Shown one piece after another: positions 41-63,900 of a stretch of 64,000 nucleotides of DNA. Source of the stretch: Heterotrichella gracilis (Eukaryota; Sar; Xanthophyceae; Tribonematales; Xanthonemataceae); contig JAULBX010013207.1 in NCBI GenBank assembly GCA_032358255.1, positions 36,104-100,103 of the forward strand, read 5' to 3'. Positions within the stretch are counted from its first letter, which is position 1. The number at the start of each line of letters is the position of its first letter. A model generated the notes under the pieces. The model worked only from the letters and a program-made list of their open reading frames with translations, had not been told where the DNA came from and did no database searches. The position numbers and the translations under genes were made by a program.

Positions 41-3000
41 CTAGGCCGCCCCCTCCGCCACCATCATCTCGTGGATCTCCTTCAAGCAGTGCGCGGCATC
101 CCTGAAGGATCGCCTGGCGCCATGGCCCGGCAGCACGTGCAGGAAGGGGTGGTGCATCATGGCGCGAACACTGGCCAGCTGGGTGTCAACATCGTACCAG
201 TTGACGGTCCTGCAGGGCGGGGTGGGTGCCGAGTGTTCAAGGGCATGCTGCATTTTACATGATAGAAGGTGGAGGGTGGCCCTAAACCCTTAACATTTAG
301 AGGGGTGGTGCACCATACCAGTGGACGTTCCTGCATTGGTGGGGGTGGCGACTGTTCAAGGGCATGTGCCTGGTCTATTTCTAGGAGGACTCCATGCGCG
401 TGCATTTCCATGATGGCAGGTGGACGGTGGCCATAAACCCCAAACCCTAAGCAGCCAGAGGGGTGGTGCTTCATGGCGAGGACACGTGTCAACTGGTACC
501 ATCCCCGGTAATCATGGCCAGGTTGGGATGATGCTACAGGCTGATGCAGCCGCCACATGTAAAAAATGGTCCTCAGATGATTTTAGGCTCGCCAAGACAG
601 AGATGGACGGCGGAGGCTGTGCACATTACCCCTATGAACACCTAAGCACCTAATCCACCAAAAACTCCTCACCTGAAGATGCTCATCCTGCCTAGGCGCT
701 GTGAGTATGCCAGGTGATCCCCTGTGAACATGGCCAGGGTGGGCTGGTGGTACAGCGTGATGCAGCCGCGGGTGTGGCCGGGGGTGAACAGGATTTTCAG
801 ATCCCCGTCGCCATTCGGCCAGTCCCAGGGCCCCTCGCCCTCCAGCTGGATCTCACAATCCCTGCACCAGACAATGAATTGTCACCCCCAGGATCCTTGC
901 TTCACCTTGTAGACCTGCTGATTACCGGTACATGATGCGGGTGGAGCCTAAGAGAGACGCGCGCGGTGCACATTTATCAAAAACAAATGCGGAAGTACGC
1001 ACATAATGCTCTGCATTCTGCACTTTACAGGACTAACAGCACGATGCAAGCTGATTGTGGCTGCAGAAGGAATATATCTTGCAACATACAGCACCAGCCT
1101 ACCCCCACAGTCTGTACGTACGTTGTGCCCTGGCGAGTGTTCGCCTCCAGCCTGTAGATGCTGCTCATGCTTTTGCATCGTTATGCATCACCCGCAGATG
1201 AAAATAGGCGAAAAAGTACAGATAGAGCTGAATGCAGCATTACGCAAGCCGCTGTAATCAGCGACACCTGCCAGGTGCGACGCAAAGCACAGCTTGCTTT
1301 CAACCTAAAGCCGCCACGTACATTGTGCCCTGGCGCTTGTTAGCCTCCAGCTTGTGGATGATGCGTGTGCAGCCCAGCGCCTGCGCCCACTGCGCGTGGT
1401 CGCTCACGTCGTCCCGGTGCGTGAGGAACATGTAGCGCACACCGCCCTGTGCCTGCAACAAAACCACAGGAAATGTAAGTGAAACTACAGAAAACAAAGA
1501 AGCAAAAGTGGAGAATTCTCCCATTAATTCTCCCATTCTCCCATTTGTGGTGGGTGGGAAACAGGTGATGCACATCGCCTGCAACAAAACCATACGATTG
1601 CCACAATGGGTTGCTACTGCACCTGATTAACCTGACCAAGATTGCTAGTGGTGTACGGTACCAGGGTGATTAGAGGACATGACTAACCTTTTCAGGATAT
1701 AATTTTGACATGACTAATTCCGATCTGTCATTGCAAATGACCACATCAGTTTGATGTACTCCATGTACCGATTTCGTTGTTGTAGATGCGTCATGACCAT
1801 CCAAGTTTGATGTACACTCGATGTACCAGCAGCACAGGCAATGCACTACAAATGGTGCATCTTGTTTACTATACCACGCTGGGTTTTCACCTGAAGGTTG
1901 ACAGGACCTGATTGACAGTGTGGCACCCACCTGATTTGATGCACCCAGTATGCAGGAATGATGTACATAATCTACAAGATCAGGCGCCTGTGCAGAAAAT
2001 CACGAGTCCCCAATTACGCCAGAGTACACAGTTCATGCGCTCGGGTGCAGTGACAGCGCACAAACCTCCGCACCATACACACTAGTCCATGCACCTAAGT
2101 TGATGGAGGATCTGGGAGGTGCACAGCATTGCTGATCCTCAAGAGATACAGGGTAGGGATCAAGGGGTTGAACGGCTAATGAAGGCAGCCCCCATCTACA
2201 GCTTCTGTGCAAGTTTAGGGTTTAGGGTTTGAAGGGCTATGAAGGGCAGACCCCACCTGTAGCTTCTGTGCTAGCTGGGGGTTGAATCGCGGCACGTCAA
2301 CCATAACATTCCCCCCTGGCCTCTGTACCAGGTAGGGGGTGGCGCCAAAGGACTTCTCCGAATGGAACCCAAGGTGGAAAACCCCTGGCAAGCCCTCAAC
2401 GGGGAGGGGGAAGCTGTCGTGCGCTGCTTTCAGCTCGCCCTTGTCGCGATTGGACACGTGGATGGAATACCTGCAGGCAGTGTCCTTAAGGCTTAATGTA
2501 TACCTATATCAAGCAAAACCTAAGATTACCCTACACTTTAGCACCTTGACAACCGTGAACCCTACAGCTGAGGTTGAAGACGCGGATTTAAATAACCTGC
2601 ACAGCCATGCAGGTTATTTCTCATGGGTTCTGTGAAGTGCAATCCTCTCCCCCCTCAGCCTGGGCGGAGAGGATTGCACTTCAGTTACTCTGCAGGCAGG
2701 CTTATTAGAGGTTTAGGTTCAATGATTTAAACCCTAAACCCTACACATGCGTTTGGGCGTGTACATGCTGAACGGCCATGCAGGTACCATACTTGCAGCC
2801 TTGCTGGCGTATGCTAGCCATGTATGCGGTCAGGTACCACACATGCTGTCTGGAGTCCTACGCTGGCCATGTATAGGACCATAGTTCCATTGTACCAAAT
2901 TGATGTATGGCCTTCACCGGGTGCACCCATGGCCTTCACTACATGGACATGACTGCATTCTAGCGGTGGATGCGGCCATGTATTACCGCCATGCCTGACA

Positions 3001-9186: not shown

Positions 9187-9230
9187 CAGCTTGTCCACAG
9201 CAGCCTCTGCCCTGCGAATGGCCTCCTGCA
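8260..9230. repeat. Decayed copies of the AP2 exon 6 donor edge
   Basis: The exon end at about 9160-9230 (GCCTCTGCCCTGC, ATGGCCTCCT, CACCAGCTTGT) recurs with its AT-rich flank at about 8940-9035. More eroded versions lie at about 8270-8345, 8560-8670 and 8700-8800. All lie in the AT-rich intron downstream of the exon. Confidence 0.7.
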
Positions 9231-12200
9231 CCCGCCGCTTGGCATCAACCACCCAGGGACACTCCGGATCCCCACCGGTGGCCCCCTCGCCGCCTTCCGC
9301 CCGCCCCCAATGGGACAAAAGTGCGTGCGCTGCAGCTTGGCGGGACAGGTAGGCGCGCGTATCGGAGCTGGGGAAGTTGATGGCCCCGCCCCCGCCCTGG
9401 CCCTGTGCGGGGGGGTGAAAGCATTGATTAGAGTAGAGAAATTAGAAGAAAAAAATGGAATTTTGGAGGGTCAGGGCTGTCTGGCGCAAGGACTGTAGCC
9501 TGTACACTGGCTGGCACCATCTAATTAATGTGAAGTTACAAATGCGCCAGGCACAGCAACCATATCAAACACAGGCACCACAGCAAGCCAACTAGGCAGC
9601 CCCCGCAGCACCAATTTCAGTAAATCACAGCAGCCACCACACCACCGCCACAGCCACGGCAGCCATCACACCGCCACCACACACAGCAGCCACAGCCACC
9701 ACAGCATCTACACCATCCATCAACCCACCACCCATACACAGCAACCACCACAAGTGCCCACCGCTGCAACAAGGCCCAGCAGCTGCCAGAGGCTGTCTGG
9801 CGCAAGGACTGGATAGACTGGAGGCTGGCACGAGGTAATACAGCAACAAACATGCAAGGCACACTGTGGCAACCACGGTAAACACAGTCAACACAGAAAG
9901 CCAACCAATGCAGCCTCCGCTCCGCCAGCAGAGCAGGCCGCCACACCCATACATATATGTATATATACATATACGTATATACCCAGCAGTCACCCATAAA
10001 TATACGTATATACACAGCAGTCACCGCAGCAGCACAGCTGCGACCCCCACAGCGACACAGTAGGCACACCATCTAACCCATATATCAACCCACCACCCGT
10101 ACACAGCAGCCAGCGCAAGCGCAAATGCAGCCACCACAACTTCCTCTGCCACCACACCATCTACACCATCCATCAAACCCACCACCCGTACACAGCAGCC
10201 ACCACAACTTCCTCTGCCACCACACCATCTACACCATCCATCAAACTCACACCATCTACACCGCAACCACCGCAGTTGCCCACCGCTACAGCACGGCACA
10301 GCAGCTGCCACCACCGCAACAGCAGCCCACCACCACAGCCACCAACAACCGCAGCAACCACCACACACAGCACGGCATGCTCAGCACAATGGCCACAGGA
10401 GCCATAGCAGCCTTCAAAAAGGAACCCAAAACCTTTGTATATTCTATGTTAGGCTAGGGCGTACTAGGCGATATACTAGGCTAGGGGGGCGTACACCGGC
10501 ATCCAGTCCTAAAGGTATCATCCCCTCACCATGCCCTAGGCCAGTTGGGACTAGTGGCACAAGGGGGGCAAACAGCTAGAAGGCAAAGCTTTAGAGGGGG
10601 AGGGAGTCCCTGGGTTTATATGTTCACAATCCCCCCACACCCACTCCAGGCATACAGCCCTGACCACGGCGTCAGTCGCCACAGCTGCCTCCACTGGGGC
10701 GTACACATAGACTGGCGTAGCAATGCATGAATGGCGGGGGAAACAGTGGACGGAAGGGCACAATGCTCTTCTCTTCGTTTGATCCTCCTCCTTAACTAAC
10801 GCGCCTGTCCAAGGGCAGGCTGTGTAGATATTTATTTATATATGTATTTAGCAATACATGACCCATCAATCATGCCACCCAGGTCTTCCTTGCCTGTTGA
10901 AACACACACAATTAACTTTTGCAGGGGCCCAAAGGTTGAAATGATCAAAAAAGGGTGTGTCAAGCTTCATCCTAGGATTGACCAAGAAGGGCATTGCCCT
11001 AAATTCAATATTTGCTCCAAGGGGAACACACTCACCAGGCACATCATGGCCATGACATCAGCCGCCACAGCCGCCTCCACCGGGGTGTCAAAAGCACCCA
11101 GGCGGCACTCATGTGGGGGGTCAGAGGGCAGGCCGCGCGCAGCAGCCCCATCCCCCAGCGGCACCGCAGCGCACCACCCCGCCCGCCCGCGCTCGCGGCT
11201 CACATACCTGCGGCACAGGGGGTGTAGGGTTCAGTGTCTAGGGCTATTGGGGAACCCTTCAAAGGTGGTGCGCGAGAAACACGAGAGACGCGCATGCTGC
11301 GGCTACTGCAGTGCATAAAGGTTAGGGTCAGGGTTGAAGCTTAAGGTTCAGGCCACGCTCGGCAGCGGCGTTCCCCAGCGGCACCGCAGCGCACCACCCC
11401 GCCCGCCCCGCTTGCGACTCACATACCTGCGGCACAGGGGGTGCAGGGTTCAGTGTTTAGGGCTATTGGGGAACCCTTCAAAGGTGGTGCGCGAGAAATG
11501 CGAGAGATGTGCATGGCTGTGGTTACTGCGGTGCATGAAGTTTAGGGTCAGGGTTGAAGCTTAAGGTTTAGGCCACGCTCGGCAGCGGCGTTCCCCAGCG
11601 GCACTGCAGCGCACCACCCCGCCCGCCCCGCTTGCGACTCACATACCTGCGGCACAGGGGGTGCAGGGTTCAGGGGGAGGCTTTGGGGGCCTGGATTGGT
11701 GTGGTGGCTGCGCTTTTCAGGGCGTGGGGTGCGTGTGGGGTTGGGGCGCTGGATGCACTCGCAGCACTCGCAGCACCCATGCCTGTGCAGACAGACTTTG
11801 GGGGCAGGGGTTGTGGTGTCAGCCGCCTGACGTATGGGGAGTGAACACCTAGGCCATCAGTGCCTCAGGGTACATCCCGGGTACAGGGTGCATAAGTACA
11901 TTGTATACTGTGTGCGTGGTTAACAGTATGTTCTGTATGTTGTGCTGCATATGTGTGGCTGGCAGGGGGTGGCACCAAATAACTTGAATAGTATGCACTG
12001 CGAAGCTGAGGTGCGTGTGGTGTGCAGCTATGATGTGCTGATTTCTTATTGTTAGAAGATATACCATGCTGGCACTAGTCACATAATACATATTGTGCAG
12101 GGTAAATTGTACAGGCGACACCCAAAATTCAAGGATATTTTTTAAAACTAGTATTACATTTAATATAAAATAATATTATATAATTCAATTTAATTTCAAT

Positions 12201-15200
12201 TTAATGAAATATCTGATTTGCATTTATTTCTACGTTTTTTCAGTCATTGCAGGCACTTCCCTGCACCGTTTGGTCCTGTTTGTGCTTTGCCTGCTGCTGC
12301 TTGGTTCTACCCCCTCTGCTTCCGTTCCTTTCCCATTTTACCCATCTGCACTTTTCTCAGAGGCACTTCCTAGGGCCTAGTGAGCTGCACGCATGTCAGC
12401 CATATAGCCAGCTCTTTTCAGCAGAAAGCCCTAATGCCTTGTGCCAGCCACCCTATATATAAAAGCTAGCAAAGCCCTACCCTTGACCCGCCCAGGTCTG
12501 CTGAAACCGACACCAAAAAATTTAATAAATAAATATATCTACGCAGCCTGTCTAAACCCTAGGGCCACCAGGGTATCGGGCAACAAAAAGGGTACAGAAA
12601 GGGTACACGGGTATTGAAAGGGTACAGAAGGTAAACACATAGGGTACAACAAATAGGGTATGGGGTGTTGGGGGGCACAAAACAGGGTACAGAACGGGTA
12701 CGCAGAAGGGTGCAAAATAATGGTTTGGAGGCCACCCAAGGCGGCATGGGCTTACCTGGTCACTATGGTAACTAATTTCAAAATATAATATAATTAATCA
12801 GCATGCAAGGGTGTGATGTATGCATGCAAGGTAGCGATTGTAGTTCTATGCCCAAGGACTTTGACAGGTTGCACAAGAAGTCTGCCCCGCAACTTATATG
12901 CTAATTTCAAAATATAATATAATTATATTATAAAAATATATTATTATAATAAGCGTCTTACCTCACAGACCCCGCAAGAGGCGTACCTGAGCACAGCTGG
13001 GCGGCTTAACCTGTGCAAGCCTGAACGCATGCACTTGACTGGCTGCTGCAGAGGTCAGCTCACACCCAGACTCCATAGATATAAATGCCCCGGGTGTCCT
13101 TGTAACTTTGGCGCCGCGAAAAAATAAATAAATATAAATACACAGCTTATCTAATGTAGCCACTACATGCACACATCCACCAGCAACGGGGGTACAGGGT
13201 CATGCAGGGTATTTAGGGTTTACCAAAGGGTATGTAGGGTTTACCACGCACCGGTACCACCAGCGCCCCGCGCCCCGCTGCTTCACCGCCCTCCCATGCC
13301 CTCCACCCCTTCCCTCCACTTCCCACCCTGGCCCTCGCTTCCTCTTGCTCCCCTTGTTCTGCAGATGGGTGCGCGCCTTGTGCAGGGAAGCAAGGACCCG
13401 TGCCTCCGCTGCCTGGCGGGAGATGCCGAGGTCCTTAGCTAGGGTTTCCGCGGCCCACGCCACGTCCACTGCGGCGTTGCTGAGGGTAGGGGTTGACTTC
13501 CCCTTGGGGAAGTTTATCGCGCCTCCCTGCAAATGGGGAGGTCAGGGGCATGTCAGTAGGTTGGGAGATTGTATTCCATCAGCACAGCCATTTAAGCCAT
13601 GTCACACTTTTGCAACCCTCCCCTGGGCGCCCTGCCAGGCATCCACCATTACAGGACACACAGCATGCGCAAGCCACCTTTCACATCCACATTAAACCCC
13701 AAGGGTCAGCAACCTTTTGTATACTACGTCTACCCTAGGGCTACATGGGCTTCCAGTCACACACAAGCACCCCTCCCTGAGCGCCCCTCTACGCATCCAC
13801 CGCCACTGCTCCACCGCACTTGTTAGCTACAGTGGCTACTGCCGGAACCTGATTGGCCCCCATTGGACCAGAGACACACTTATGCACAGCACACACCCAA
13901 CAACCCCATCACTCGCCACGCCAATGACAACCCACTAAACCACACAGCCCACACAACCACCGAAGGGTTCCTAGGGTTTCTAGGGCTCCCAGCCGCACAC
14001 ACGCACCCCTCCCTGTGCCCCGCCAGGTAACCACCACCACACTACGACAACCCACACTCAAACCCAACAACCACCCAAGGGTTTTCAGGGTTTTCACGCA
14101 CCCCTCCCTGTGCGCCCCGCCAGGCATCCACCGCCACCGCCGCCTCAACAGCGCTGACTAGCTTGAGCTGGCACCGGATTGACCCAAGCTGTACCAGGGC
14201 TCTGTACCCATTGGCTCCCCAGGGGGACACACCACTGCAAGGGGGAGGAGAGGGGGGGGTGAGACTGGGTGGGGGGATGTGAGGGGATGCGGGATGGGGG
14301 GAGGGGCGCGCGGGGCAGTGGAGGGCATGTGAGGTCCCACCTGGAGTGGAGAGGGGCGGATGGGTGGGGGAATGGCCAGGGGTGGCGTGCACAGAGCGCG
14401 AATGATATGCCCGCACAAACCCTCCACCCACCCTCCGCACACGCACACACTGCCACCACCACCCATACCAGCGCATGGGCTCTTAACACACACACACATC
14501 AAGCAGCAAAACCTTTATAATTAGAAAATAAAACGTTAGTTTCACCACCGGCACCACCGCGGACACCCACCACCAGCAACTCACATGTCATGCGCTCTAA
14601 ACCCTAAACTCTATACCCTAAACCCTAAACTCACATGTACGTGCGCCCCTTGCCGCCCCTCCCCGCCCCCGGCGCCAGTCCCTGCCCTGCCTCTGGCCCC
14701 ATCCCCGGCCCAGCCAACTCCTGCGCCATCAAAATATTCAAATAAGTGAACAATAATATAAAGTGAATACATTAAATGAATAAGAAAGCGGACAAGCACG
14801 TGCACAGCCTGCGCAGCCAGTCCTTGAAGCATGGAAACAGCGTCTCACACCTTACATGCAGAACACAGGAAAAACAGCGTTTCCAAAGTAGTACAGAAAA
14901 GCACCCCCTACCATGTAATGCATCACCTGCACCATCATCTTCCCTTGCTGCAGAACCTCCAAATACTCCTCCTGGCTTCCCAAACCTAGGGCAGACAGCA
15001 GGGTGGGGGGGACCTTGGGGGCTGGAGCTCCAAACGGCACCAGCGCCATGCTATTTAGGGTCTGCGGGAGGGCTGCGGTTAGGGTTTCCATGGTGCCAAG
15101 CCCATCCCCTTGGTGGGTGTGCCGCGTCACGCCCGCGTGGGTCATCAGGGTAACGGGCTGCGCAGCCTCTCCACCCTCACCACCCCCACTGGTGGTGGTG

Positions 15201-18355: not shown

Positions 18356-21300
18356 TCACGCACGGGACATGGTGAGCAAGCCCCCCCCTACCACCCCCCA
18401 CCCCCCCGGTTCAGCACCAGCCTCCTCGAACTGCTCTTGCTTGAAGCATCCCACGTGGAACTGCACCGCAGATGTGAAACTGCATCGGCACCCATGACCA
18501 CCAGATATGCAGGCCCCGTCTCCCGCTCCAGCGCAAGCCCCCCCCGCTGGGCCCCAAACCCTTATGTAGGTTCCAGCGCCTCTGCCAACTCCAGTCCCCA
18601 GCACACACACCCTTGTAGGGTGTGCACGCGTGCCCCAGCCCGCCGCCATGCCCAGCCGCCGCCCGGCGGCTGGGCCAGCCGCCGCCGCCAGGAGCATGTC
18701 GGGACCGAAAGCTAGCAACTGGCGGTGCGGACCAACCCCACACACACTGGCCCTGGCAGCTGGACGCCGCAGCCCACCCAGCACCCACCAGCCCCTCTCT
18801 TCAGCGCTCCTCCCCCCGCGCCCACCTGCCCGCCGCCTCCGCCAACCCCGGCCCCACATCGAACGCCGCAGCGGCTGCCAGCAGCTGGTCGGGGGTGAAA
18901 TCCAGCGCCGCCAGGTGTCGCCCGTTGAGCGTTGCCAGCAGGTGCTCGAATGGCTGCGCCAGGAGCTGGTCCTGGGAGCATTGGAGTAGTGCCAGGCCCA
19001 CCTGGAACACCGCCTGTGGGGGGTTGGGGAGAGGGGTGGGTGAGACGGGGAGAAAGGGAGGGTGGGGGCTAATCACAATTCAAAAAATATGTGTATAATA
19101 TACGGTATGTGTATAGTGTAGGGGCTGAACCAACCTGCCCTGGCCAGCTGCAACAGAATGGCCCTTGCCACCCTTGGGTTAGGGTTAAGGGTTGCGCCCT
19201 GCCCCAGCCTGCCATAGCCACCAGCCCTGCCCCATGCTGCCCTCCCCACCACCCCGATTGCACATACATACCCTGCCAGCCCAGCACACTGGTGCGCCCA
19301 CCCCCGTCTTCACCCCACCACCACCACCGACGCACCTGTATGCCCGCCGCATCACCACCGCCGCAGCGCACCTGTATGCCTGCCACATCGCCACCACCAC
19401 CACCCCCACCGCCACCGCTGCGGCACACCTATATGCTCTCAACGCAGCCCACGCCTACCCCCCCAACCCCACCACCCGTCCGCCGTACGGCGCACCTGTA
19501 CTCCCTTGCACCATGACTACGTCCCACATGCGCAGCGGCAGGGTGTAGGCCATGAGCATGATGAACCACTGGCTGCAGTGCAAGCCCCTAAACCCTAAAC
19601 CTAAACCCCAAGCAGCCGCAGGGTGCAAGTGCAGTGCAGGTCCGTACTCCTTCCACCCAAATGCAAACCCAACCCCCCGATCACCCCCCACCCCACCCGC
19701 TGCGCACCTGTATCCCCTGCATCATCACCACGTCCCACACCCGCAGCAGCAGGTGCAGCGGCAGGGTGTAGGCCATGAGCGTGATGAACCACTGGCTGCA
19801 GTACAGGTGCGCGCTCACGTGCTCCCCCGCAAGGTGCGCGGCCAGGGGGGGCAGCCATTGGGCAACCAGGAAGTCAAACTGGGGGGGGGGCAGGGGGAGG
19901 GGAATGGGTCAGTGGCAGGCGGGGAGCATGTGGGGCTCAAACTGAGGACTGTGCGTGCACATTTCCAACAGCAGGCTTTGACCCTATGCCCAAGCGCACA
20001 CCCACTCCGCAGTCGAGGCCTGGCGAATGACGACCGCTGCCGCCGGACAAAAAAGAAGACACTGATTAAAAAACTAAAAAGGTGTCCATAGTACCCACTG
20101 ACCCATTCACTTGGTGGGACAAAGAGCTCTTGGCCATGCATGAAGAGCAGAATGATCAAGACATGCCGGGCAAAATATCGCAGGGACTTGCACCACGCCA
20201 CACTGGCCTGGCATGCTGGGCAGGCGGGAGGCCGCTGTGGGGGTATGCCACTGCATGTATGCAATAGACAGTGTCTGCGGCTGTGCAGGCGGAATATCCC
20301 CACCATGGCAGGAGCCCAAAAGCTCAAACCCGAGCCCTGCGCCCCACCCCACCCCACCTGGAAAATGAAAGCCGCCGCAGCAGCAGCCCCTCCTAACCTG
20401 CTGTGCCACCCCCCCTTGAGCAGCGCCACCGCCACAAACTCTACCCCCTAACCTCCTTAACCCTATGTGGTTTTCCTTCCTTGCATTCAAAGCCCCAAAA
20501 TCCGGTCCTACGCCTCACTCACACGCACCTGGAACATGCACAGCCTCAGCAGCGGCAGCCCCTCCTGGTACATCCCCTCCATTGGCGGGCTGTGCCGCTC
20601 CCCCTTGAGCAGCGCCACCAGGGTCCAGAAGGCATCCTCCTCGCTCATGTACAGCAGCAGCAGGCCCGCGATGAAGCCCATGCCCTGCACATACCCCACC
20701 TGCGGGGGTGGCCAAGAGACGGGTGAAGTGAAGGGGGGAGGGGAGAGGGGAGAGGGGGATGGGGAGAGGGGAGAGGGGCCCCTGGCTGTGCACGCTGAAG
20801 GTGTGAGCAATCCCCGTGTATTTTCAGCTTGCAAAGTTTGTGCACAAGGAGGAGAGAGAGAATCTTCCTCGCTCATGTCCAGCAGCAGCAGGCCCGGAAT
20901 GAAGCCCTTGCCCTGTATGTACCCCACCTGCGGGGGGGGTGAAGCGGCAGGGTGAAGGGAGGTGGTTGCGCCTGGTATGTTGCGTGCTGTGCAAGGGCGG
21001 GACTGCTAGTTGGCCAAGTTATAGGAACCCACGTAGCCGTCTGGCTATGGTGGGTTAAAGTGCTTGGTAGAGGCAGGTGGGACAGCATTATGCAAGAATG
21101 GGAGCTAGTTGCTGCGAATGGCTACCTTGCCATGGAGGTGGCCATCGAACGCCAGGTAGGCCTTGGAGCACGCTGAACAGGTAGGGCAAACCCTAAACCC
21201 TAAACGTTAACCAAGGTAGGAGCTAGTTGCTGCAGGCGGCACTTTGTCACTGCACGCCAGATAGGCCTTTTGTAGGGTTAAGGGTTTAGGGCCGGCACCC

Positions 21301-46720: not shown

Positions 46721-49700
46721 ATGAAGAACTCCATAATATGGTTCAGGAAGGTAAATACCTGCACGCTGCAGTCAAATGAATTTCCCACTGCTGGGCGTAG
46801 GATGTGAGTTGATCAATTCCTATATACACCTTGCAGCCCCCATATGCATGCATTGTGCTAGGGTCTTCGCCTCCCCAATAACCCTAACACCTACTTCTCA
46901 AGCCATCAGAACCGCCGCCGAACCTTGGAGTAGGGTCCCCGCCTCCACGCGCAAAACCCTAAACCCTTGGCCCCCTAAACCACACAATCCTGAACCCCAA
47001 ACCCACTGTAGGGTCTTCGGCTGCACGACAACCCCGCCCTGCTGCGCAGCCTCCAGGGCACAGACCACCTGTACCCTATCTTCATACTGGACCCATGGTT
47101 CCTCACCCCTGACAGGTAAATACCCTAGTTAAGGGTAGGAATATCTCCACTGGACCCCAACTGGTGTCTCATGCCCCAGAGGTGAATACCCTTGCTAAAG
47201 AGGTTCACTGCTGGACCCAAGGTTCCTTGCATCAGATATGAGAATACCCTGATTAAGAGTGTTCCACTGCACTTGCACTTACAGTTACAGGGAAGGCTCC
47301 GGTACTGCAAAGCACCGAAACTGCACTTGAACACTGCTAGGGTTCCAACCCTATAAGAAAACTTCTAGAGCATTGAGCACTGCTGCTGCAATGGTTTACT
47401 CCACTTACGTCACAACTTGTGGAACCCAATTAACGATGTCAGCTACCGACTGACAATGGGTGGCAGCGCTCTGCACAACACTGAGACCTGGTCGATCACG
47501 GCGCATGTTTAGGGTTTCTGTGTGTGGCGTAGGGTCGGCACCAACCGCCTCAACTTCCTGTTGGAGAGCCTGGAGGATCTGAACAACAGGTGATCACATG
47601 GACTATACCCAAAGCCTTAGCCCTAAGATACTAAACCCTTTACAGATGTTCACATGTGCTTGTGAACCACATCGTATAGGGGTTTTACCACACACTGTAC
47701 CTGTCGATGAACGGGCATGGGAGTGGAATTTTTCACATTGGACTTTCACAATATATTACTTGTATTCTGTGTTTATATTTATCTATTCTTTGTGTGTAAA
47801 TTGCAGCTTCCGTGCGCGTGGATCCCGGCTACTTGTGTTGAGGGGCAAACCGGTGGAGGTGCTGCCACAGCTATTCAAGGTGAGGGGGTGGGGCAATGGT
47901 GGGGGTGGGGGTGTGGAGGTGTTTTGAGTTAACCTTGCATTGCCAGGCAGCCAGCTCGCAAAAAAATGGTGGCTATGTCTGGAGCCAGACGGAGGCCCTA
48001 CTTAAACCCTAATCAAGTCCTAGCGAAACCCTAACAAGCCCCACCCCTGCGCAGGATTGGTCCATCAGCCAGCTGTGCTTTGAGTCAGACACGGAGCCCT
48101 ACGCTGTTTCGCGTGATGCTGACGTGGCAAGGATGGCAGCGGAGGCGGGGGTGGAGGTGGTCACGTGCGTCAGCCACACGCTCTACGTGCGTGGCCAGGA
48201 ACCCTAATGAAACTCTAAGTGGCTACCCTAGCAATTCTTTTGCCTCTGCCCGTATGGATCTCTGCCTCGTCAAATACCCTAGTACTAGTCTACTAGTTTG
48301 TTTGTACTGCCAACCCAACCGAACCAAAAACCCTACCCTGTCCCACCCAGGACCCTAGCGAGCTGGTGGCTTGCAACAAGGGTAAGCTCCCCTTCACCAT
48401 GAAGGCATTCGAGGCCCATAATGAAACCCTTGACTCACCCTCGTGAAACCCTATCTCCCACCCCACAGGACCCTAAAGAGCTGGTGGCTCGCAACAAGGG
48501 CAAGCTTCCCCTCACCATGAAGGCATTCGAAAACCTGGTGGATGCTGTGGGACCACCGCCCGCCCCCGCCCCAGACCCCCCACCCACCCTCCCCCCGCCT
48601 GCCCCCGGCGCCTCCCGCTGCTCCCCTGAAGCCACTCAAGTGCCCACCCTGGCCGAGCTGGGCTACGCTGATGTTAGCACCACACCCTTCAAGGTGGGTG
48701 CAAAATATAGAGAAAAAGCATAAAAGTTATGCTGCCAGTCTTTGATCAGGGGGGTTGGATGAGGAAGCGGTGTCCATTGTCCAACCTCTTGCAAAGTGCA
48801 TGCCAGAAACGAAAATGGAGGTCTCCTGCTGTTCACTGCCTCACACCCTTCAAGGCGAGGAAACCCTTGCACACAACCCTAGCAAAATCGAAAGTTTTAC
48901 CAGGCAGGCAAAACAGCGCTTCAATGAAAACCAATAAAATCAACACTTAAAAAAACAAAATCCCCGCTGCGTATTCCTTTCCCAGGGGGGTGAGACTGCT
49001 GCGCTTGCTCGCATGGCTGACCAGCTATTGGACCACAAATGAAAAACCTCGAATTGCAACCCGATGACACATACATCTCATACCATGGCAGGGTTGCAAA
49101 AGAGCGCTCAATCCTCCAATTGTGTTTTCCTCTTCCAGGGGGGTGAAACTGCTGCACTGGCTCGCATGGCTGACCAACTATCCGACCACAAATGGGTGGC
49201 GGCATTCGAGAAACCAAAGGGGAACCCCGCTGCCCTCATCCGGCCAGCAACCACCGTGCTGTCGCCCTATCTCAAGTTTGGCTGCCTGTCTCCTCGCCTT
49301 TTCCACGCCAAATTGTTACAGGTGGGTAGGGAAAGCCCTAAAGAAACCCTAGAAAGGCGAAAATCCTGTGTTAACTCTGTTGCATAGAGTCCCAGCTTGT
49401 CAGAACAAAGGGCAATTAATATATATGAATAAGAATAAAATTTGTATTTACCGTATTTATTTATCGAATTCCAATTTTTTTCTCACTGCGGTGCAGATCT
49501 ACGCCTCGCATCCCAAGCACACCACCCCTCCCACCTCCCTGCGGGGCCAGCTGCTGTGGCGGGAGTTCTTCTACACAGTGGGGGCACACACACCCAACTT
49601 TGACCGAATGGAGGGGAACGCGATATGCAAGCAGATAGAGTGGGACGACGACCAGGAGTTTCTCAAGGCGTGGGAGGAGGCGCGCACCGGGTACCCTTGG

Positions 49701-51051
49701 TAAGGGTTTGGGGGAGGGTGGCGGGATATGTATGGTGCGTTGTCAGCAACTCATGAGAACGGAATAATGATGTGGATAAATATGTGATAATGAACCCTAC
49801 CTGGAACCCTCAAATCCTACAAAAACCCTATCCAAACCCTAATCAAAACCCTCCTCGCCCAGGATCAACGCCATCATGACCCACCTGCGGGAGAAAGGCT
49901 GGGTGCACGACCTGGCACGCATACCGCTTTTACCAGGTTTTATCCCCAAACTCTACAAAAGCCCTTTCCAAACCCTAATCGAAACCCTCCCCACCAGGAT
50001 CGACGCCATCATGACCCAGCTGCGGGAGCAGGGCTGGATGCACCACCTGGCACGCCACTCGGTTGCCTGCTTCCTCACAAGGGGGGATTTATACTGCTCT
50101 TGGGAGAGTGGGAGGGACACCTTTGATCGCCTGCTGATCGACGCAGATTGGTCCATCAACAATGCAAACTGGATGTGGCTGTCGGCTAGTGCATTTTTCA
50201 CGCAGTATTTCCGGGTGTATTCCCCCGCCACATTTGGCAAGAAATACGACCCTCAAGGGGAGTACATCAAGCATTTCTTGCCAGTGTTCAAGGTGGGTGG
50301 CTTTGGGTGGGGACAGCTGTACAGGCTTGTTAAGACCCCATAAAGTAATGTTACGTAAAATTGTACTGAGTATAACAATGATAGCTGTGTCAAGAATTGG
50401 CCGTTTTCAAATCTAAATCTTTTACATTTGTCTCTGACTCTGAATGTTGCCCCCCTTGGTGCAGGAATTCCCCGCAAAGTACATTTACGAGCCCTGGACC
50501 GCCCCCCTGGAGGTGCAGCGGCAGGCAGGGTGAGGCACATGCGCATGCATACACCCAGATACACTGGCGCGTGCAAATGCACTGTACGTGCGCATAATTT
50601 ATATGTCTGGCATTGAAGTAATATCACAGGTGACAGTCCATGCAGTAGTGACAGTCCATTATGCATTATTATTGCAAATGAATTATGCATGTTTGGCATG
50701 GACTGTCAGCTGTGAGAATTCGCTTCCTTTTGCCTGCGTTCCACACCCGTTGCCCCCTCTCCAGGTGCATCACCGGCCCAGTCATTGACCACTCCCGTCA
50801 GGGTTTCAACCACCCACCGTAGGGTTTTCACCCACCTGTTGCCCCCTTACCCCAGGTGCATCATTGGCAAGGACTATCCCCGCCCCATAGTGGACCACGC
50901 CACAGCGCTCAAGGCCAACATGGCGCGCATGAAGGAGGCGTACGCGGGGGCAAGGGAGGCAAAGGAGGGGGTGGCAGGGGAGGGGGCAGGGGCGAGCGGC
51001 GGAGGGGGCGGTGGTGCGGGGGGTGGGAGTGGGAGGAAGCGTAAGGCGTAA
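46721..51051 (+). CDS. Animal-type cryptochrome / (6-4) photolyase
   Basis: Eleven exons, all phase-consistent: 46721-46750, 47012-47115, 47533-47589, 47807-47879, 48055-48186, 48469-48693, 49139-49321, 49497-49699, 49998-50292, 50465-50529, 50856-51051; 520 aa. The photolyase domain begins [20 protein letters not shown] and has HPxF-type [28 protein letters not shown], an unusual Pro-rich insert (residues about 164-181), then the FAD domain: [54 protein letters not shown] with the two His (352, 356) needed by (6-4) photolyases, [35 protein letters not shown]. The Gly-rich tail ends GRKRKA, a possible nuclear signal. It binds FAD and senses blue light and/or repairs (6-4) photoproducts; algal relatives do both. 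Five or more exons have intronic edge copies. Confidence 0.94.
46855..47260. repeat. Copies of both edges of cryptochrome exon 2
   Basis: The acceptor edge (TAGGGTCTTCGGCTGC, 47009) has copies at about 46859 and 46932. The donor edge (ACTGGACCCATGGTTCCTCA..GGTAAATACCCT, 47086-47126) has copies at about 47150-47192 and 47212-47252. Confidence 0.8.
48351..48468 (+). pseudogene. Upstream copy of the cryptochrome exon 6 start
   Basis: After an intact CCCAG acceptor the frame reads [20 protein letters not shown], against [20 protein letters not shown] in true exon 6 at 48469. Then it diverges and no in-phase donor follows. Copy length is about 65 bp of exon plus intron flank. It could be spliced in by mistake. 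Confidence 0.85.
48980..49040 (+). pseudogene. Upstream copy of the cryptochrome exon 7 start
   Basis: After an intact TCCCAG acceptor it reads [18 protein letters not shown] then TGA; true exon 7 at 49139 reads [19 protein letters not shown]. The copy ends exactly at the stop, where the similarity also breaks. Confidence 0.88.
49800..50060 (+). repeat. Tandem copy of intron 8 end plus exon 9 start
   Basis: Both units contain CCAAACCCTAATC, AAACCCTCC, a CCAG acceptor and GATC.ACGCCATCATGACCCA. Copy 1 (49863-49922) reads [19 protein letters not shown] then goes off frame; copy 2 (true exon) reads [20 protein letters not shown]. Copy 1 has lost one of the catalytic His residues. Confidence 0.9.
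50755..50880 (+). repeat. Copy of the cryptochrome exon 11 start
   Basis: CTCCAG then GTGCATCACCGGC (50760-50776) repeats CCCCAG then GTGCATCATTGGC (50851-50868), about 92 bp apart. The copy frame reads [14 protein letters not shown] and has lost the DYPRP part. Confidence 0.75.
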
Positions 51052-53405: not shown

Positions 53406-56400
53406 TCACTGCGCCTTGGGCAAGGATGGTGAACGTGGGCTGGTGGCGATGGAACCATCCCCCACCTCACACTCTGAAGCGTGGGCACTGTCCATGGGGA
53501 CCGCAGCCTGCGCAGAGCTGCTGCCAGGATTGCTCCACACAGGCATTGAAGCCTGCTGCGCAGCCAGGTCTTGCATCATCTGTGCCAGATCGTGGCTGAG
53601 CGGGGTGGCAGCGGTGCCCATCATTGCCGGCATGCTACCCATGCGGTGGCCATGGCCCAGTGTGTCCGCCACCTGTGCTTGGAAGCCACCCATGCTTGGG
53701 CCGGCAAAATCAAAGGTCCTGCACAGTACATCACCGCCATCAGACAACTGACATGTAAAATAGTCTCCGGGTAAACTGCAATAAGGCACGCGTGATTTGA
53801 AGTTGGCAAGTTGCCCTTGTCATGTAATGCAACAATGCTACTTGGGACAGTCTGCCTCAGACATGGATCACACATACTGCACTCCAGAATTTCCTGCATT
53901 GTGCTTTCTCAATGACATGGTTACGCACCGGGTGTCCATCTGGTACATCTGGTCCTGGGATGGCACGGAGAAGCTGCGGGGAGCAGCAAAGCCAGATGAG
54001 CATCCCAGGGAGAAGTCTCCCGGCAGGGCCTGGCTGGGCATTGGTGCTGTGAAGGCGCCCAAGCCCATGCCAGGCACACTGCCCGATCCCTGGCGTGCCA
54101 GAGCTCCTCCAAATGCTGACATCCCCATCCCCTCCTGACCCATGTTATACATGTACTCATTGACAGCGCCTGAGCCATGCCTGGAGAGGGTTCCAAAGGG
54201 GGTCAATGCAGCAGGGGTCTGGTCCCCATGCAGGTACGTATACTGCCCAGCGGCGGACCTGCTGCGGGTGACGGTGGGGGTGGGATGGAAGCCCTGGCTG
54301 AGGGAAGGGTGCCTGACCAGGTTCAGATCCTGACCCAAGTGGTAGTTACCCATGCTGTGGGGTCCTGGAGGGGGGTTCATCCCATGCTGCGGGGTGCTGT
54401 AGCTGCGTGGACTCATGGCGCCAGAGCGGCCAAACATGACCTCATGCGCTGAACGCTCATTGCTGAAGGGGTTTTCCAGGTCGCAGTGTGCCTGGGAGTA
54501 CGCTGCAAAAGGAGATGACAGTGCTGGAGGCTGGAGCCCCTGGTCTGAGGTGGCAGCATCAGGATGCGGCGTGGTGGTAAATGGAGAGACGGGAGGCCTG
54601 CCATGACTGCCGCCAGATGACATGGCATTGTTGAGGGACCCATTGGTAACCGTCAGGGGGTTCTCATTGGAGAGCAGGGAAGACAGGTGTGCCATGAACT
54701 CCTGCTGGCTGACCATGCCATTGGTGGTGGGCAGGGTTGACTGGAGCTTGTTCAGTACCTGCACAGCAATAACTGGTGTTACACCATTGACAAGCTGCCA
54801 TGGCATGGCATGGCATTGCTGGAATTACAATGCAGATCAATGACACACATCTGTAATAGAGCTTGATGACAGTGTTCAGTCCAGGCGCAATGCGTGGATT
54901 AGCCGCTCTACTTCACAGTAATACACAGGGTTTTGGGAGGTGTGAAGATAACTTCTGTTAGAAAATAACCGCTGTTTCACAGGAGTTTTAAAAACAACAA
55001 ATAGCTACCTTGAAAGGTGGATATAGAATTAAAGAAATATACATGTATAGAAACACCACATGCAAGTTCAGCAGCAGCAGCAATACCCCTCCTCAGCGTA
55101 CCTCGTGTGCATTGAGCATGGGGGGGTGGGAGGATTGGTCCATGCTGACTGCCCCCCCTTCAGAAGACTCGCTCAAGCTGGTGCTGAAGGAGCACTGGGT
55201 GCCCAGGGTGGGGGTCACGCAAGGCTCATACCCTCCTCCGCTGAACTGGCGCAGCACGTCAGTCTTTGCCAGGGGCTTGGAGCGCGCGCGGTTGCCATTG
55301 CCCTGGGCGCTTGCAGGCGCTTCCGCGTGGTTGGCGCTCTTGACCAGCTGCACCAGCGTCAGAATGAATATGTAAATTATTTATAGAAACAAGAAAGATC
55401 CTCATATATGTTTTTCAAGTACTACCCACGATGATGACATTGATGAAAGAACGAAACAAAGAAACAAAGCGCCCCGCGCACGGCGGCATACCACAATCCA
55501 GCAATGGTGAAATGCACAGTATTACCCTTTTACAAAAAGCAGCCATGGAACAGGGGCCTCATTGAAAGAGACAGCTGTGGAAGTGCGGAAAAAACGGCGG
55601 GCATCGGAGGTTGGTCACCTGTCCCTACCTGCATCAATGCGGAGCCATTTGGACTGTTGTCGTCAGACAAGCCCATCCACGCAGCACCATTGCCCATGCT
55701 GTTAGGGTTGCCGTTCTGTGCCTGAACTCTGTTGAAAGGCTTGCTCCTGTACAAACAAACCATGTAACAGTTGTTAGACAATGTACATGACGTCATGCTG
55801 TTTACATGTCCATGCAATTGGAGGTTAGACACACCCTGGCATTCAGACCCAAGCCCAGCTTGAATACATGAATTCAGACACTGGGCAATTGCTGTACAAT
55901 GTGTCATCTACATTGATGACACATTTAGCACACAGCAAGTACTTGCTGTGCGCTGAACAATATTGGAGCCCCAGTTCAATACACCTACTATGCAGTGCAG
56001 CTGGTGGCTAGCAGCACAACCCTGGAAGTAGAATGTACTGGTACGTACACAGTGACAGCGCCATTTGTTGCTTAATGTTGCGATTACCCACCTGGAGTTG
56101 TTGCCCCTAATGGCTGCAGCATACGGCACCACCCGGCGCGGTGGTGGCTGGTAGCTGAAGTCCACACCATGGATGTGCTGCACCCTGCTCACGTACTGGC
56201 CGCAGTATGAGCCCTCGCACAGCTGCTTGTACCTGTCCACTGCATTGCAGATGATCTCCAGGCCGAGGACTATGGACCTGCTTCGCCCCTGGAGAACAAG
56301 GAAGAGCTGTTGTTAATAACCTGTCCTGCACAAATGTCACAGCCAAGTGAGCTACAGTACACAGATAATCTGGAAGTGAAACCGACTGCGTAGATATTTA

Positions 56401-57751
56401 TATAATTTATTTATATAAAAGGGACTGCTGCATTCAGTTGCCAGATGCTGCATCGATATGGGCAAACAGCCCCTGTGGACAGCGGCCATACCACAAAATT
56501 GCAGTTTGTGCACTGCGCCTTGGCAAGACCAACCATTACATATGTGGCATATAATTGAGGCCCTACCTCAACCACAAAGGTGCGCGTTGGCCTGTTGATC
56601 CCAGGTGCAGTGCACTCCGTCCAGGACTTGATTTCTGCACCTGTCTGCTTGGTGATGGCGCGCACACTCATACCTGCATCATGGTTGCTAATAAGTGTGA
56701 AGCTGGGGACGTTCTGGGTTAGTTTAAGCATGGTACTGCGGCCACTGCGTGTGCTTTACTAAGGCAGCAGCAGTCCAGCACCAGGCTGACAGCACAAGAC
56801 ATGAGATTGAATATATCAGGGCTAATATTAACCATCAAATGTACTGCACATTATTATGCCATGTACTGCCAGGGGTGTGTCATCTACCACAGCATGCCTT
56901 ACCTGATGGACCAATGACAAACCCCGCAGCAAGGAGCGTAATTCGTAGAAGCGCACCACTGCAACACAATGCTCATGCTTGTCAGGACCTTGTGCACAAC
57001 GGATGGCGCAACAAGACACCATGTCAAAACCCAGCCTTGGCAATGGTGCGAATATTCATTACAGCCATCAGCACTGCGCGTACCCTGAAGGTGCCCTCTC
57101 AGCCGCCACAATGCCCTGCTCCTCATCCTCGATGCCTTCACCTGACCTTCTAGGCCCTGCAGCAAGTAGACAGTCTCATTCTGATCCTGTGACCGCAATT
57201 TCAAGCAATTGCGTTCATGCCAAATCAATTCATGTTGGACGGCGCAAATTGGTGGCAACGCTTCAATGCCACTATACTCGCTGCGTCAGCCAGGGTTGCA
57301 ATGGCGTCAGTCATGTCTACTTTTCAGAACAGCCAGTTGACACATTCAATGTGAGTGCACCTCTGATACGAGATGACAAAAGGCGCCAGGCTGTTTTTCA
57401 GTCATCCACTTCATCCAATATGAATAGTTGACTGAAGTACATCATGTGATGCCAAGTTGTGATGCCAAGTTGAGCGTTCCTGACTCATCTAGCTGCGAGC
57501 TCACCGCTGGGCTGAACCCATTTGGAGGGTGTCCCTGGCATGCCACCAGTGTCCATGCCAGACATCACATTGTCAAGTGACAGGATGGAGGCGCCATCCC
57601 TAGTCAGCCTGTTGTAGGCTATGTGATCCAGCATGCCCTCCAGGGACATGGTGCAGCTGGCGTGCTGTGCTTGCCCAGAGCCTGGCACAGCCAGAGGGGT
57701 ACTTGGCCCACCAGGTAGGACGTTGAAGCTCCCCATGCTCATCATGGTCAT
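53406..57751 (-). CDS. KH-domain RNA-binding protein with long Ser/Gly/Gln/Met-rich tail
   Basis: Nine exons, all phase-consistent: 57751-57505, 57156-57084, 56958-56903, 56673-56567, 56288-56092, 55746-55629, 55347-55102, 54758-53929, 53718-53406; 728 aa, TGA stop. A single type-I KH domain lies at about residues 108-185: ALLRITLLAAGFVIGPSG with the GxxG loop GPSG at 123-126, then MSVRAITKQTGAEIKSWTEC, INRPTRTFVVEG, SIVLGLEIICNAVDRYKQL. The last ~450 residues are disordered-looking (LGQDLNLVRHPSLSQGF, GMGMSAFGGALARQGSGS, DLAQMMQDLAAQQAS). KH domains bind single-stranded RNA, so a post-transcriptional regulator is inferred; the targets are unknown. The ATG at 57751 follows an acceptor-like CAG, so a further 5' exon is possible. 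Unlike its neighbours this gene has few telomere-like units and no clear exon-edge copies. Confidence 0.84.
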
Positions 57752-60700: not shown

Positions 60701-60943
60701 TGATCTTATACAGGCCATGATGCAGCAATTCAAAAGATGCCTGTGGCGTCGCTACAGCGTCGCTCTGCGCTGCCCTAAAACACACAGGCTGGCATTTGCT
60801 GCTTCTGTTGACATCTAACTACCCCGCTGAAGCTGCACCACACTCACTCAGCACCCTACCTCCCTGGCGCATTGCTGCGCCCGGCCTCCAGAAAATGGGG
60901 TCGATCGCATTCCAAAAATGTGGCCCCAAATGCCGCAGTCCCC
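57752..60943. other. Intergenic, promoter side of the KH gene
   Basis: About 3.2 kb. No recognised gene. A plus-strand frame at 59761-60069 (102 aa, containing VDPEAECSACNSTMATLQFK) looks plausible but has no domain or splice support. An (AAATC)n microsatellite of about five units lies at 60523-60548. A short GC-rich hairpin (CTCTCC-GCG-GGAGAG) is near 59000-59015. Confidence 0.45.
60523..60548. repeat. AAATC microsatellite
   Basis: About five consecutive AAATC units, seen directly. Confidence 0.9.
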
Positions 60944-63900
60944 TCACATATTCATAATATCCACATCTCCCAAATCGAACCCCATACCCCCGAAGGGTCC
61001 CCCCTGCTGCATCATCCCCCCAAATCCCCCTAGCCCCATCATGGGCCCCGGGTGCATGTCATTGATGCCTCCGTGGGGGTACAGCATTTGGCCAGGGGCC
61101 ATATCCATGTCCCCCATCATCGGCATCGAATTGCTCCCCATCATGGGCCCAGGGCCCATATTCATCGGCCCCGGCCCCACCCCCACCATCGGCCCCGGCG
61201 CCGCATTATTGCCCCTGCCCCCCAAGACCGCCGCCGCCATGTCATACCGGTGACCATCCCACACATTATCGTCCTCACCTGGCCAGCACTTTCGGACGCA
61301 GTCATGGCGCACCATGATCCTCACCGCAGGAGTGGTCTTGTTGTGCGACAGCTGGCCGATCCCCGGCCGGAAAAAGGCCTGTCCCCGGCACAGCTGGGTG
61401 TCGTTGAACACGGTGACGTATCCCGGGGGCACGACCGTCCCAGGGGGCACAATCAGGATGATGATGCGGGGGTGGAAGCCCGCTGCGTGCATCACAAACT
61501 TGTCCGCCAGGGCGTTGTTCTTGCCAAAGGGGGGGTTGAGGCCGATCACCAAGGATTCACCGGGTGCGCCCATGTCTGTGGAGAGGGAGGGGGAAGGGGT
61601 GGCGTTGGCATGGAGTCTGGGGGTGGGCGAGGGGCATATTGGGATGAGTGAATTACAATGTACAATGCGTAAAATAATACTGCGGCATTGCCAAAGGGGG
61701 GGTTGAGGCCAATCACCAGGGATTCACCGGGTGCGCCCATGTCAGTGGAAAGGGGGGTGGGGGTTAGGAGGTGAAGGATCAGGGCGGTGAGTGGTGAGTG
61801 GTGAGGGGGTTGAGGGTGGGGGGGTGGGGGGCCCGGGAAGAAAATGGACAATTGCAATTTGCAAGGGGTGTCAGGGGTGAGGGGCTGATGGGGGTTGTGC
61901 AGGGAAACGTGTGATTGCAACTACAATTACATTTTCAATCGGAGGGCAACACACTACCCCTGCCCTGAGAATACCAGCATGCGAGGTGTCATACCTGCTC
62001 TTGCATAAAAAAACCCACAGGGTCGTTGCCATCACTCGAACCCTAGCCAAGGGTACCAACCCCTGGCAGCGTAAACCCTAGCCTAGGGTTACCTTCACGC
62101 CTCCTGTCGAACCAGCTCTTGCACCACAGGTCCGACAGGTCGTTGGCTATTATTTAAACCCTACCCAAGGGTAACACCACAGCGTACACCCTAGCCTAGG
62201 GTTACCTTCACGCCTCGTGTCGAACCAGCTCTTGCAGCGGAAGTCTGACAGGTCATTGGCTGTCACAATGTCGAAAGCCAGCCCATGCACTACAAAGCCA
62301 TCCCTTGCACACGCTTGCTTCACCAGGGGAACAAACTGCAAATGGGGGAGAGGGGAGGGTGACACGTTGTCACACCTCGCAAGTGGGTAGAGCCACATTA
62401 GCGGAGGAGGGAGCAAGGGTGAGCAGGTAACCCACCTGTACGAACAGAAACCCTAACCCCCAACCCCTACAGAGGTGAGCAGGGTTTTATGTGCTACTTT
62501 AATTGGCCCACAGCTCAAGTCCTCAATTCTACCCTAAGCCCTACATAAACCCCTCATCAGGGTGCCGGCCTCGCCACAACCGCCCTGCAGCTGAGGCCCA
62601 CCATCGAATTCCCTGAAGCCCGTAGTCTAGGGTTTAGAACACAAACCCTGCGCAACACCCTGATAGGAATTTGGCCCCCTTCTCGTCTGCCCTACAGCTT
62701 GAGTCTAGGGTTAGGAAATAACCGCTGCACAAAACCCTGATCAGGGTTTGGGCGCTGCCTCGTTTGCCCCGCAGCTGATGAAGTCCACTATGGTATCCCC
62801 CAAACCCTAGGGTTTAGAGCAGAAACCCTGCACAAACCCCTGATCAGGGTTTGGACCTCACCTCGTTTGCCCCGCAGCTGAAGTCCACTATTGTATCCCC
62901 TGCGCGCATGAATGGCACCAGCCACTGCACCACGCGGTGCAGGTGCCCCGGAATGGTGAAATGGCGGCCAAAGGAGGTGTACCTGGGGGTGAACCAAGAA
63001 TAATTATTCAACATTTTGAACACAGAAATTGATCAATGAGATGTTGATCAGGTGGTATGCAAAAGGTGAAATGGCGGCCAAAGGACGTGTCCCTGGGGAT
63101 AATCTGAGGATTATGTAAACACAAAAGACGCCACTCCAGCCCATGCATACTGTCTTTCACTGGAAATGGCATCATCTCAGCCCTTGTACCTGATCACCTC
63201 CCGCACAATTGCCATGCAAACACTCGCTTAACAGCCCCGCCTGCACCTCTGGAATTTGCCATCCACTACATCCCCAACCCAAATCCCGACTGCAATCCAC
63301 TATGCGCACCCGTCCTTGACCGTGAAGGGCATCATGACAGTGCGCAGCGCGTCCTCGTATCGCCATAAGTCCCGCAGGAACTCCGCAGACATGAGCATGG
63401 ACGCCATGTGGGGGTTGGCGGCGGCGCCCTGCACCGTGCTGCGCATGGCGTCCAACCGTTCCTGCAATCAGGTTAGATTGAAGTATAATCAGGTGTGATC
63501 AGGTTGGACTGAGGTGGGCAACATTTGAGGCATTTTGGGTTTGTCAGGCAGCTGTGCCACAGGTGTACAAATTATACTGTTATTGGTGTTTGCACACCCT
63601 CATTGCGCCCTGCCGCTTCTATGAACATGCGGCCTGGCATTCAACCGCTCCTGTGATCAGGTTGGATTAGGTGTAGCTGGATTGGGGTTGATAGTTTGCA
63701 TCGGGATTGAGCATGATCTTCAATTACATCAAAACCCTAAAGTGGTGCATCCCATACCCTTCCCATTGCCTTTACCACAAATACCATATACCCTAAATAA
63801 AGGTTTGGCACATACCTTTTCCACAGTCTTCCTCATGGCAGAGTTGTAGGGCTCTGGCTTGTTGGTGGCTCGGGTCACTGAATCGACTGTGATCACCTCT

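Follow-up and report, generated by a model that had tools for sequence, protein, structure and literature searches.

Copies of exon edges inside their own introns in a 64-kb window of the Heterotrichella gracilis genome

Intragenic duplications are common in eukaryotes (Gao and Lynch 2009, as cited in PMC4974935), and some of them cross the boundary between an exon and an intron. In the potato RdRp gene, a tandem duplication across an intron-exon boundary led to a new intron by way of a cryptic exonic donor (PMC4974935), while in the Rogers/Hellsten model it is the duplication of an exonic segment bearing AGGT that gives rise to a new intron (PMC4974935; proto-splice-site duplication, PMC2891723). 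Small tandem duplications are also produced via 53BP1-Shieldin-CST and Pol alpha-primase fill-in at Cas9-induced breaks with 3′ overhangs, and CST fill-in has been placed at telomeres as well (PMC8355091). Introners, finally, add intron sequence in many genes by copying themselves between genes (PMC9860276). This article deals with 64,000 nucleotides from Heterotrichella gracilis (Xanthophyceae; GenBank assembly GCA_032358255.1, contig JAULBX010013207.1, positions 36,104 to 100,103 of the forward strand; hereafter “the window”), in which exon edges recur, together with their splice sites and intron flanks, within the introns that they border.

Short segments straddling exon-intron junctions (about 30–220 bp) have probably been duplicated locally again and again to give these copies, an account that we hold with some reserve. 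The lengthening of introns without mobile elements is poorly explained, and a bias centred on junctions would offer a concrete, countable route. It would also run counter to the usual view of small duplications as evenly spread along genes, and the fossil splice-site copies left behind would challenge the spliceosome.

Exon-edge copies and their distribution

Twelve hand-curated genes make up the set; they have 49 introns, of median length 417 bp, and 99 splice junctions. Curation was based on reading frame, on GT/GC-AG sites and, for some genes, on homology, and gene-finder models were replaced by hand wherever the predicted mini-exons were copies. The edges tested are the 98 junctions bounding the 49 introns; introns without fixable boundaries never entered. 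The window has a GC content of about 54%, with CpG at about half of expectation. Compared with itself by BLAST, it yields 72 pairs of direct repeats separated by less than 800 bp (bits at least 34) and no inverted pair at that distance; in three shuffled windows there were no pairs of either kind in this range. Each edge, taken as 40 nt of exon plus 40 nt of intron, was then compared with its own intron, and 25 of the 98 edges (13 donor and 12 acceptor) matched. None of the 98 matched when reverse-complemented, when shuffled (best of three shuffles) or when set against one random intron from another gene each (0/98 in all three controls). Since 25/98 edges match their own intron and 0/98 do so when reverse-complemented, a chance origin of these matches is excluded.

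With segments of 60 + 60 nt, 44 copies were recovered; 38 of them span the junction, and the other 6, being one-sided, were dropped from the counts. The spanning copies (21 donor, 17 acceptor) all lie inside the adjoining intron, and each is one of two close direct copies, the other holding the working (predicted) junction or, in three of the 35 distinct repeat pairs, being itself a copy. They are spread over 28 edges, 24 introns and 10 of the 12 genes, with one to three per edge and an overall identity of 74–96% (27/38 at 74–88%). The initial annotation, made by eye, had reported at least 25 boundary-spanning cases in a graded series, and both the number and the gradation are upheld by these counts; the offsets of the 35 pairs (86–485 bp, median 172) are somewhat wider than the 50–250 bp that it gave for the units. 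Its remark that acceptor copies lie upstream of the exon and donor copies downstream is true, but the arrangement is for the most part a necessary one, since an exon stays whole only with the copy attached to its body. Clear cases in which homology supports the exon are found at 48,328, 48,968 and 49,808 (acceptor copies in a cryptochrome gene) and at 19,454 and 20,326 (donor copies in a gene with a TBC domain). Two curated genes are free of copies: one, at about 53.4–57.8k, contributes 12 edges, and the other the 2 edges of its sole tested intron. Offsets divisible by three occur in 6/35 pairs, a weak shortage that might point, faintly, to selection acting on products of mis-splicing.

How often does other DNA in the window behave in this way? 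Among intron-internal 80-bp segments the raw figure is 28/257 (18 of the 28 in a gene tagged AP2; reverse complement 3/257), many of these being edge copies that match each other or belonging to one low-complexity intron. With edge-derived copies masked, 15/200 match, and with the low-complexity intron (9,403–11,035) also left out, 6/183; one of these six (11,292–11,371) forms the spacer in an array of edge copies. Intron-internal repeats do exist, in the low-complexity intron at 9.4–11.0k, in an array at 29.7–29.8k and in a few more places. The first of these, a 1.6-kb intron on the reverse strand, contains a field of low-complexity repeats of the CCACCACAGCA type, in which imperfect units of 68 bp follow one another in tandem. 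Intergenic segments gave 0/174 matches (eight blocks, 14.2 kb). Of 66 exon-interior segments, three matched a neighbouring intron, and each of these began 40 nt from an edge; within the curated exons the repeat list holds short repeats only. A profile with 40-nt probes runs from 0/78 at 80–120 nt deep in the exon through 3/90 at 40–80 nt to 20/98 in the last 40 exon nt, then 6/98 in the first 40 nt of the intron and about 3–6% beyond. Restricted to the three genes best supported by homology, the counts are 10/40 for edges and 1/77 for internal segments (p = 8e-5). The proposed duplications had been open to refutation by intron-internal copies as common as boundary-spanning ones; in the window the rates are 6/183 internally and 25/98 at edges.

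A distribution of this kind might also arise if tandem duplication were uniform everywhere and edge copies stayed recognisable about twice as long, one partner being a conserved exon. This is the alternative that survives best, although we consider it unlikely. Differential decay predicts that exon halves of the edge segments should match more often than intron halves, as they do (20 vs 7 of 98). Uniform tandem duplication was simulated on sequences that drift neutrally and take up indels while the exon is conserved, and the runs were compared with edge-biased ones, the earlier sets using fewer summary statistics than the final one. In the first set, five uniform settings gave mean edge:internal ratios of 0.34–0.52. 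Three of six uniform settings, all of them old pulses, attain the observed ratio of about 2.3, but with edge match rates of 0.07–0.15 against the observed 0.26. With fewer statistics and unmasked data, 2/1465 uniform runs come close (d < 6), as do 23/1500 biased runs; without the low-complexity intron the figures are 0/1465 and 15/1500.

The final set is less favourable to uniform duplication. Edge statistics plus copy divergence are fitted (d < 12) by 169/1088 uniform runs, and these predict 10–99 internal matches per 183 and 12–108 intergenic matches per 174, where 6 and 0 were observed. On all statistics, d < 10 is reached by 0/1088 uniform runs (best 17.0) and by 3/1124 biased ones, and d < 20 by 1 and 35, respectively. 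The closest uniform run (d = 17.0), an old pulse, predicts too few exon-half and intron-half matches, while all 17 biased runs with d < 15 have non-edge duplications suppressed by 0.79–0.99. Because the edge-matching uniform runs all predict more internal and intergenic matches than observed, the edge bias looks real in this window, with caution over the assumptions of the simulations. The initial annotation had seen more here than chance tandem duplication would give, and in the simulations boundary copies indeed exceed uniform duplication with neutral decay.

Fate, make-up and possible origin of the copies

Once in the intron, the copies drift neutrally, like junk. Their mismatches are almost evenly distributed over the codon positions of the exon (0.124/0.104/0.136, with the frame chosen by codon score), and their splice dinucleotides are not conserved above the flanks: AG is kept in 16/17 acceptor copies and GT in 16/21 donor copies, with exon-side identities of 0.91 and 0.85. 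An impression of unusual AG retention gained by eye (about 24/25 acceptor and 13/20 donor copies) was abandoned, as the objective alignments gave these same fractions, near the flank identity. Selection for splicing roles, whether as decoy or alternative sites, mini-exons or in recursive splicing, would account for the near-complete retention of AG and for the presence of copies in 10/12 genes. We find it improbable that the copies are kept for this reason, given that both dinucleotides are retained about as often as flank identity predicts, that codon positions differ so little, and that 5/21 donor copies have lost GT, two of them to GC.

What do the copies contribute to intron length? Recognisable copies cover 2,521 of the 26,301 curated intron bases (9.6%), and the stretch from edge to farthest copy covers 24.9%. 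Introns with edge matches are longer (median 556 vs 344.5 bp; 21 vs 28 introns, p = 0.003), although a longer intron also offers more room for a match. That such duplication is a main route of intron growth, as had been proposed from the first inspection, therefore holds in part.

The structure of the repeated units is varied. Writing X for the unit, contiguous or nearly contiguous sets have X = 220 with a spacer of 0 (AP2-tagged gene) and X = 113 with a spacer of 23 (cryptochrome gene), and in the array at 36.7–37.0k the units are head-to-tail by eye. In three copies the spacer resembles the exon-side flank, that is, the copy or array extends beyond the alignment. However, in 28/35 copies the spacer is not homologous (z < 1; mean z 0.18) to the intron flank on the copy's outer side; in this test three copies with spacers below 15 nt were dropped, and several of the 35 rows share one repeat pair, so that not all are independent. 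Because of these 28 spacers, pure head-to-tail duplication is probably insufficient, and filler or later loss of the flank would be needed. The term “tandem” used at the outset suits the contiguous sets but is not fully borne out for the copies as a whole.

Unrelated spacers are also what would be left by a mobile element, introner-like or of another kind, that inserted at the exon edge and made a long target-site duplication there (X-S-X, with S the insert), and telomere-like AACCCT/AGGGTT hexamers are indeed denser in introns (137 in 26,301 bp, 5.2/kb) than in intergenic DNA (2.4/kb) or exons (0.56/kb). Against such an origin, which we regard as very improbable, some units have little or no spacer, and no spacer recurs among the 70 strongest distant matches listed for the window. 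These consist of simple repeats, telomere-like motifs, the copper-protein-like genes, similar signal-peptide exons and a few short near-noise matches. A shared mobile spacer, recurring between genes, was accordingly rejected as a candidate within the window and within those 70 matches. The nearest thing to a piece common to distant loci is a palindrome-bearing stretch of 27–29 bp, 86–89% identical, at 34,158–34,186 and at 62,067–62,093 and 62,178–62,206, the latter two being the intron part of two edge-copy units.

Two inverted plastocyanin-like paralogues (34,600–37,100, +; 39,100–40,900, −) have homologous acceptor-copy units in common; hence at least one copy is probably older than the duplication of that gene. 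An assembly artefact is hardly credible in view of these shared units and of the 27/38 copies that are only 74–88% identical, unlike products of mis-assembly; nothing speaks directly for it, though the most similar copies (11.1–11.7k, about 93%) could be suspected.

Two sequence features are associated with copies. Acceptor edges with copies are richer in C-runs (3.8 vs 1.85, p = 0.004; p = 0.02 without the copy-free gene), and AACCCT/AGGGTT occurs in the 60-nt intron flank of 13/28 edges with copies and of 14/70 others (p = 0.012; within-gene permutation p = 0.010). The same hexamers are found 29 times in the first 50 bp past donors, where 12.8 are expected. By eye, head-to-head telomere-like palindromes (ACCCTAG..CTAGGGT) lie between or beside edge copies in the introns at 62,060–62,210, 62,800–62,830 and 35,890–35,930. 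The copy-free gene at 53,719–57,504 (−) has few telomere-like motifs (1.7/kb), and its acceptors appear by eye to be poor in C-runs.

In the window, one copy remains the working (predicted) edge while the other sits in the adjoining intron and drifts neutrally, and several copies at one edge form a graded series; the net effect of recurrent duplication at junctions would be longer introns with an unchanged protein. Within exons, duplications would in most cases disrupt the protein. Those within introns or between genes should be tolerated, yet they are rare or not found, so that the events, or their survival, are concentrated at junctions. Why should junctions be preferred? Our best guess is break-and-fill-in repair: a staggered break or stalled fork at a junction might be repaired by fill-in or template switching, which would give duplications with or without a spacer, and the C-run-rich acceptor tracts and the telomere-like motifs of the flanking intron would be candidate triggers. 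The fuller proposal is that junctions are hotspots of a specific mutational process (for example breaks or fork stalls at C-rich tracts and telomere-like motifs, followed by fill-in) and that introns grow stepwise from their own exon borders. This we put forward tentatively, as possible rather than probable; if it is true, the architecture of splicing would itself be a source of DNA growth.

Several points weigh against these readings. The sample is a single 64-kb window, a stretch of one contig, from which all edge, internal and intergenic counts are drawn; the splice sites are predicted, several genes are without homology support, and gene labels were given partly by eye. The simulations assume indel rates, unit lengths, priors and tolerances chosen by the analyst, and even biased runs seldom fit every statistic (the 3/1124 given above). 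The real copies do not extend as far into exons as the simulated ones (−60/−20 ratio 0.15 vs 0.58–0.65), and the 28 unrelated spacers do not follow from simple duplication. Origin by break repair is itself inferred, and its proposed triggers show modest associations, chosen from several features and with uncorrected p values. Within genes the acceptor C-run association stands at p = 0.059, and G-runs at donors are not associated with copies (p = 0.57). For the telomere-like motif, p rises to 0.049 without the copy-free gene, the second spelling ACCCTA/TAGGGT is not significant (p = 0.08), and neither is the presence of AACCCT/AGGGTT per intron (p = 0.19).

Genes and copies along the window

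The clearest gene of the window is that of the animal-like cryptochrome (46,721–51,051, +), with 11 curated exons in a frame-consistent model. Its best solved relatives are 5zm0 and 6fn0, which we take to be Chlamydomonas structures. It carries four acceptor-edge copies: 48,328–48,408 for the exon starting at 48,469 (AG kept, exon side 52/58 identical), 48,968–49,041 for that at 49,139, 49,808–49,920 for that at 49,998 (the near-contiguous unit described above), and a short one, 50,744–50,772, for that at 50,856. When 18 stretches of translated frame, a part of the six frames, were scanned against Pfam, this photolyase/cryptochrome gene was named, as were the TBC and ferredoxin-domain genes. 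The tags AP2, EDM2 and KH, and a PC6-tagged paralogue, found no Pfam match above cut-off and remain tags only. SER7 (a label given by eye), PC4 and PC4b are likewise tags only. Viral contigs scanned with one protein of the window gave no relative.

The TBC RabGAP gene (about 18–22k, −; RabGAP-TBC match) has three donor-edge copies for the TBC-domain exon ending at 19,708 (19,313–19,542), one for the exon ending at 20,529 (20,326–20,394), and an acceptor-edge copy at 20,868–20,960 for the exon starting at 20,699. Its exon ending at 21,410 is followed by donor-edge copies in units of about 56 bp (21,145–21,409), spanning at 21,239–21,319 and one-sided at 21,145–21,180. At the start of the window, a ferredoxin-domain/metallo-beta-lactamase-like gene (0–4.2k, −; Fer4_13 8.1e-15, Lactamase_B matches below cut-off) has an acceptor-edge copy at 316–366 for its last exon, which starts at 209; a donor-edge copy at 1,116–1,164 (−) belongs to the exon ending at 1,322. 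Further along the reverse strand, the exon ending at 11,036 has a donor-edge copy that has lost GT (10,637–10,702), the exon starting at 11,207 has two acceptor-edge copies with a 220-bp period (11,373–11,673), and the exon ending at 14,102 has three graded donor-edge copies (13,612–14,040).

On the forward strand, a polyketide-cyclase-like gene (about 23.9–27.7k; Polyketide_cyc 3.7e-16) has two donor-edge copies for its exon ending at 23,995 (24,075–24,260). Two more follow the exon ending at 24,521 (24,598–24,732, +) and one the exon ending at 25,052 (25,113–25,152, +). The same gene has a probable GC-AG intron (CAG|GCAAGT) at 26,254 (+). An acceptor-edge copy at 30,930–30,958 (−), for the exon starting at 30,762, lies in a gene resembling the copper-protein-like gene at 34.6–37.1k (+). 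For the latter, called plastocyanin-like here, a Copper-bind match of 2e-4, just above cut-off, lends weak support. It has a donor-edge copy at 35,948–35,999 for the exon ending at 35,877 and three acceptor-edge copies at 36,686–36,940 for the exon starting at 37,045, the outermost of which (36,686–36,721) is non-spanning, its intron side being too short. Its inverted paralogue at 39.1–40.9k (−), recognised by sequence similarity, has an acceptor-edge copy at 39,275–39,325 for the exon starting at 39,206; on the same strand are a donor-edge copy at 39,607–39,693 (exon ending at 39,831) and an acceptor-edge copy at 40,288–40,337 (exon starting at 40,144).

Beyond these, the exon starting at 43,544 has an acceptor-edge copy at 43,204–43,280 (+). 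The gene at 53,719–57,504, with six curated introns and copies at 0/12 edges, serves as an internal negative. The remaining copies are all on the reverse strand: an acceptor-edge copy that has lost AG (61,688–61,760, exon starting at 61,575), a donor-edge copy at 62,039–62,145 (exon ending at 62,206), three graded donor-edge copies at 62,536–62,800 in which GT is changed throughout, to GC, AA and GC (exon ending at 62,862), and acceptor-edge copies at 63,062–63,098 and 63,632–63,668 (exons starting at 62,982 and 63,461). Short tandem repeats also occur in sequence predicted, by reading, to be coding, at 44,238–44,318 (12-bp units), 30,714–30,755 (18 bp) and 34,626–34,669 (6 bp).

Comparison with described systems

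The 2009 survey of internal gene duplication by Gao and Lynch reportedly does not deal with decaying copies that accumulate in introns with a bias towards edges. Nor was a description of exon-border copies accumulating in this way found in the open-licence literature searched, including the available parts of PMC6330051, PMC10400597, PMC4974935, PMC2891723 and PMC8355091. The initial annotation knew of no named system; the type of event, duplication across a boundary, is in fact published (PMC4974935), while no description of such events recurring at junctions and thereby adding to intron length was found in the sources searched, so far as available.

As in potato RdRp (PMC4974935), the duplications cover an intron's end together with the beginning of the exon after it. 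Unlike that case, in which one gene gained a new intron, the gene structure here is apparently unchanged and the copy lies within the intron, at 28/98 edges. The Rogers/Hellsten model likewise involves a small intragenic duplication, which by our reasoning should leave the donor and acceptor edges of one intron alike. Homologous edges were found in 0/49 introns (score at least 26; control 0.11 per 49), and intron gain by AGGT duplication was set aside on this count, though old events could have decayed. Unlike introners, which spread between genes, the copies form no such between-gene family among the 70 strongest distant matches listed. The CST/Pol alpha route, by which staggered breaks yield small duplications, is a mutational route that would fit. 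It was shown at Cas9-induced breaks, and the available text of PMC8355091 makes no mention of introns or of a link to algae. Since CST fill-in acts at telomeres too (PMC8355091), a connection between it and the telomere-like motifs of these introns is an attractive idea.

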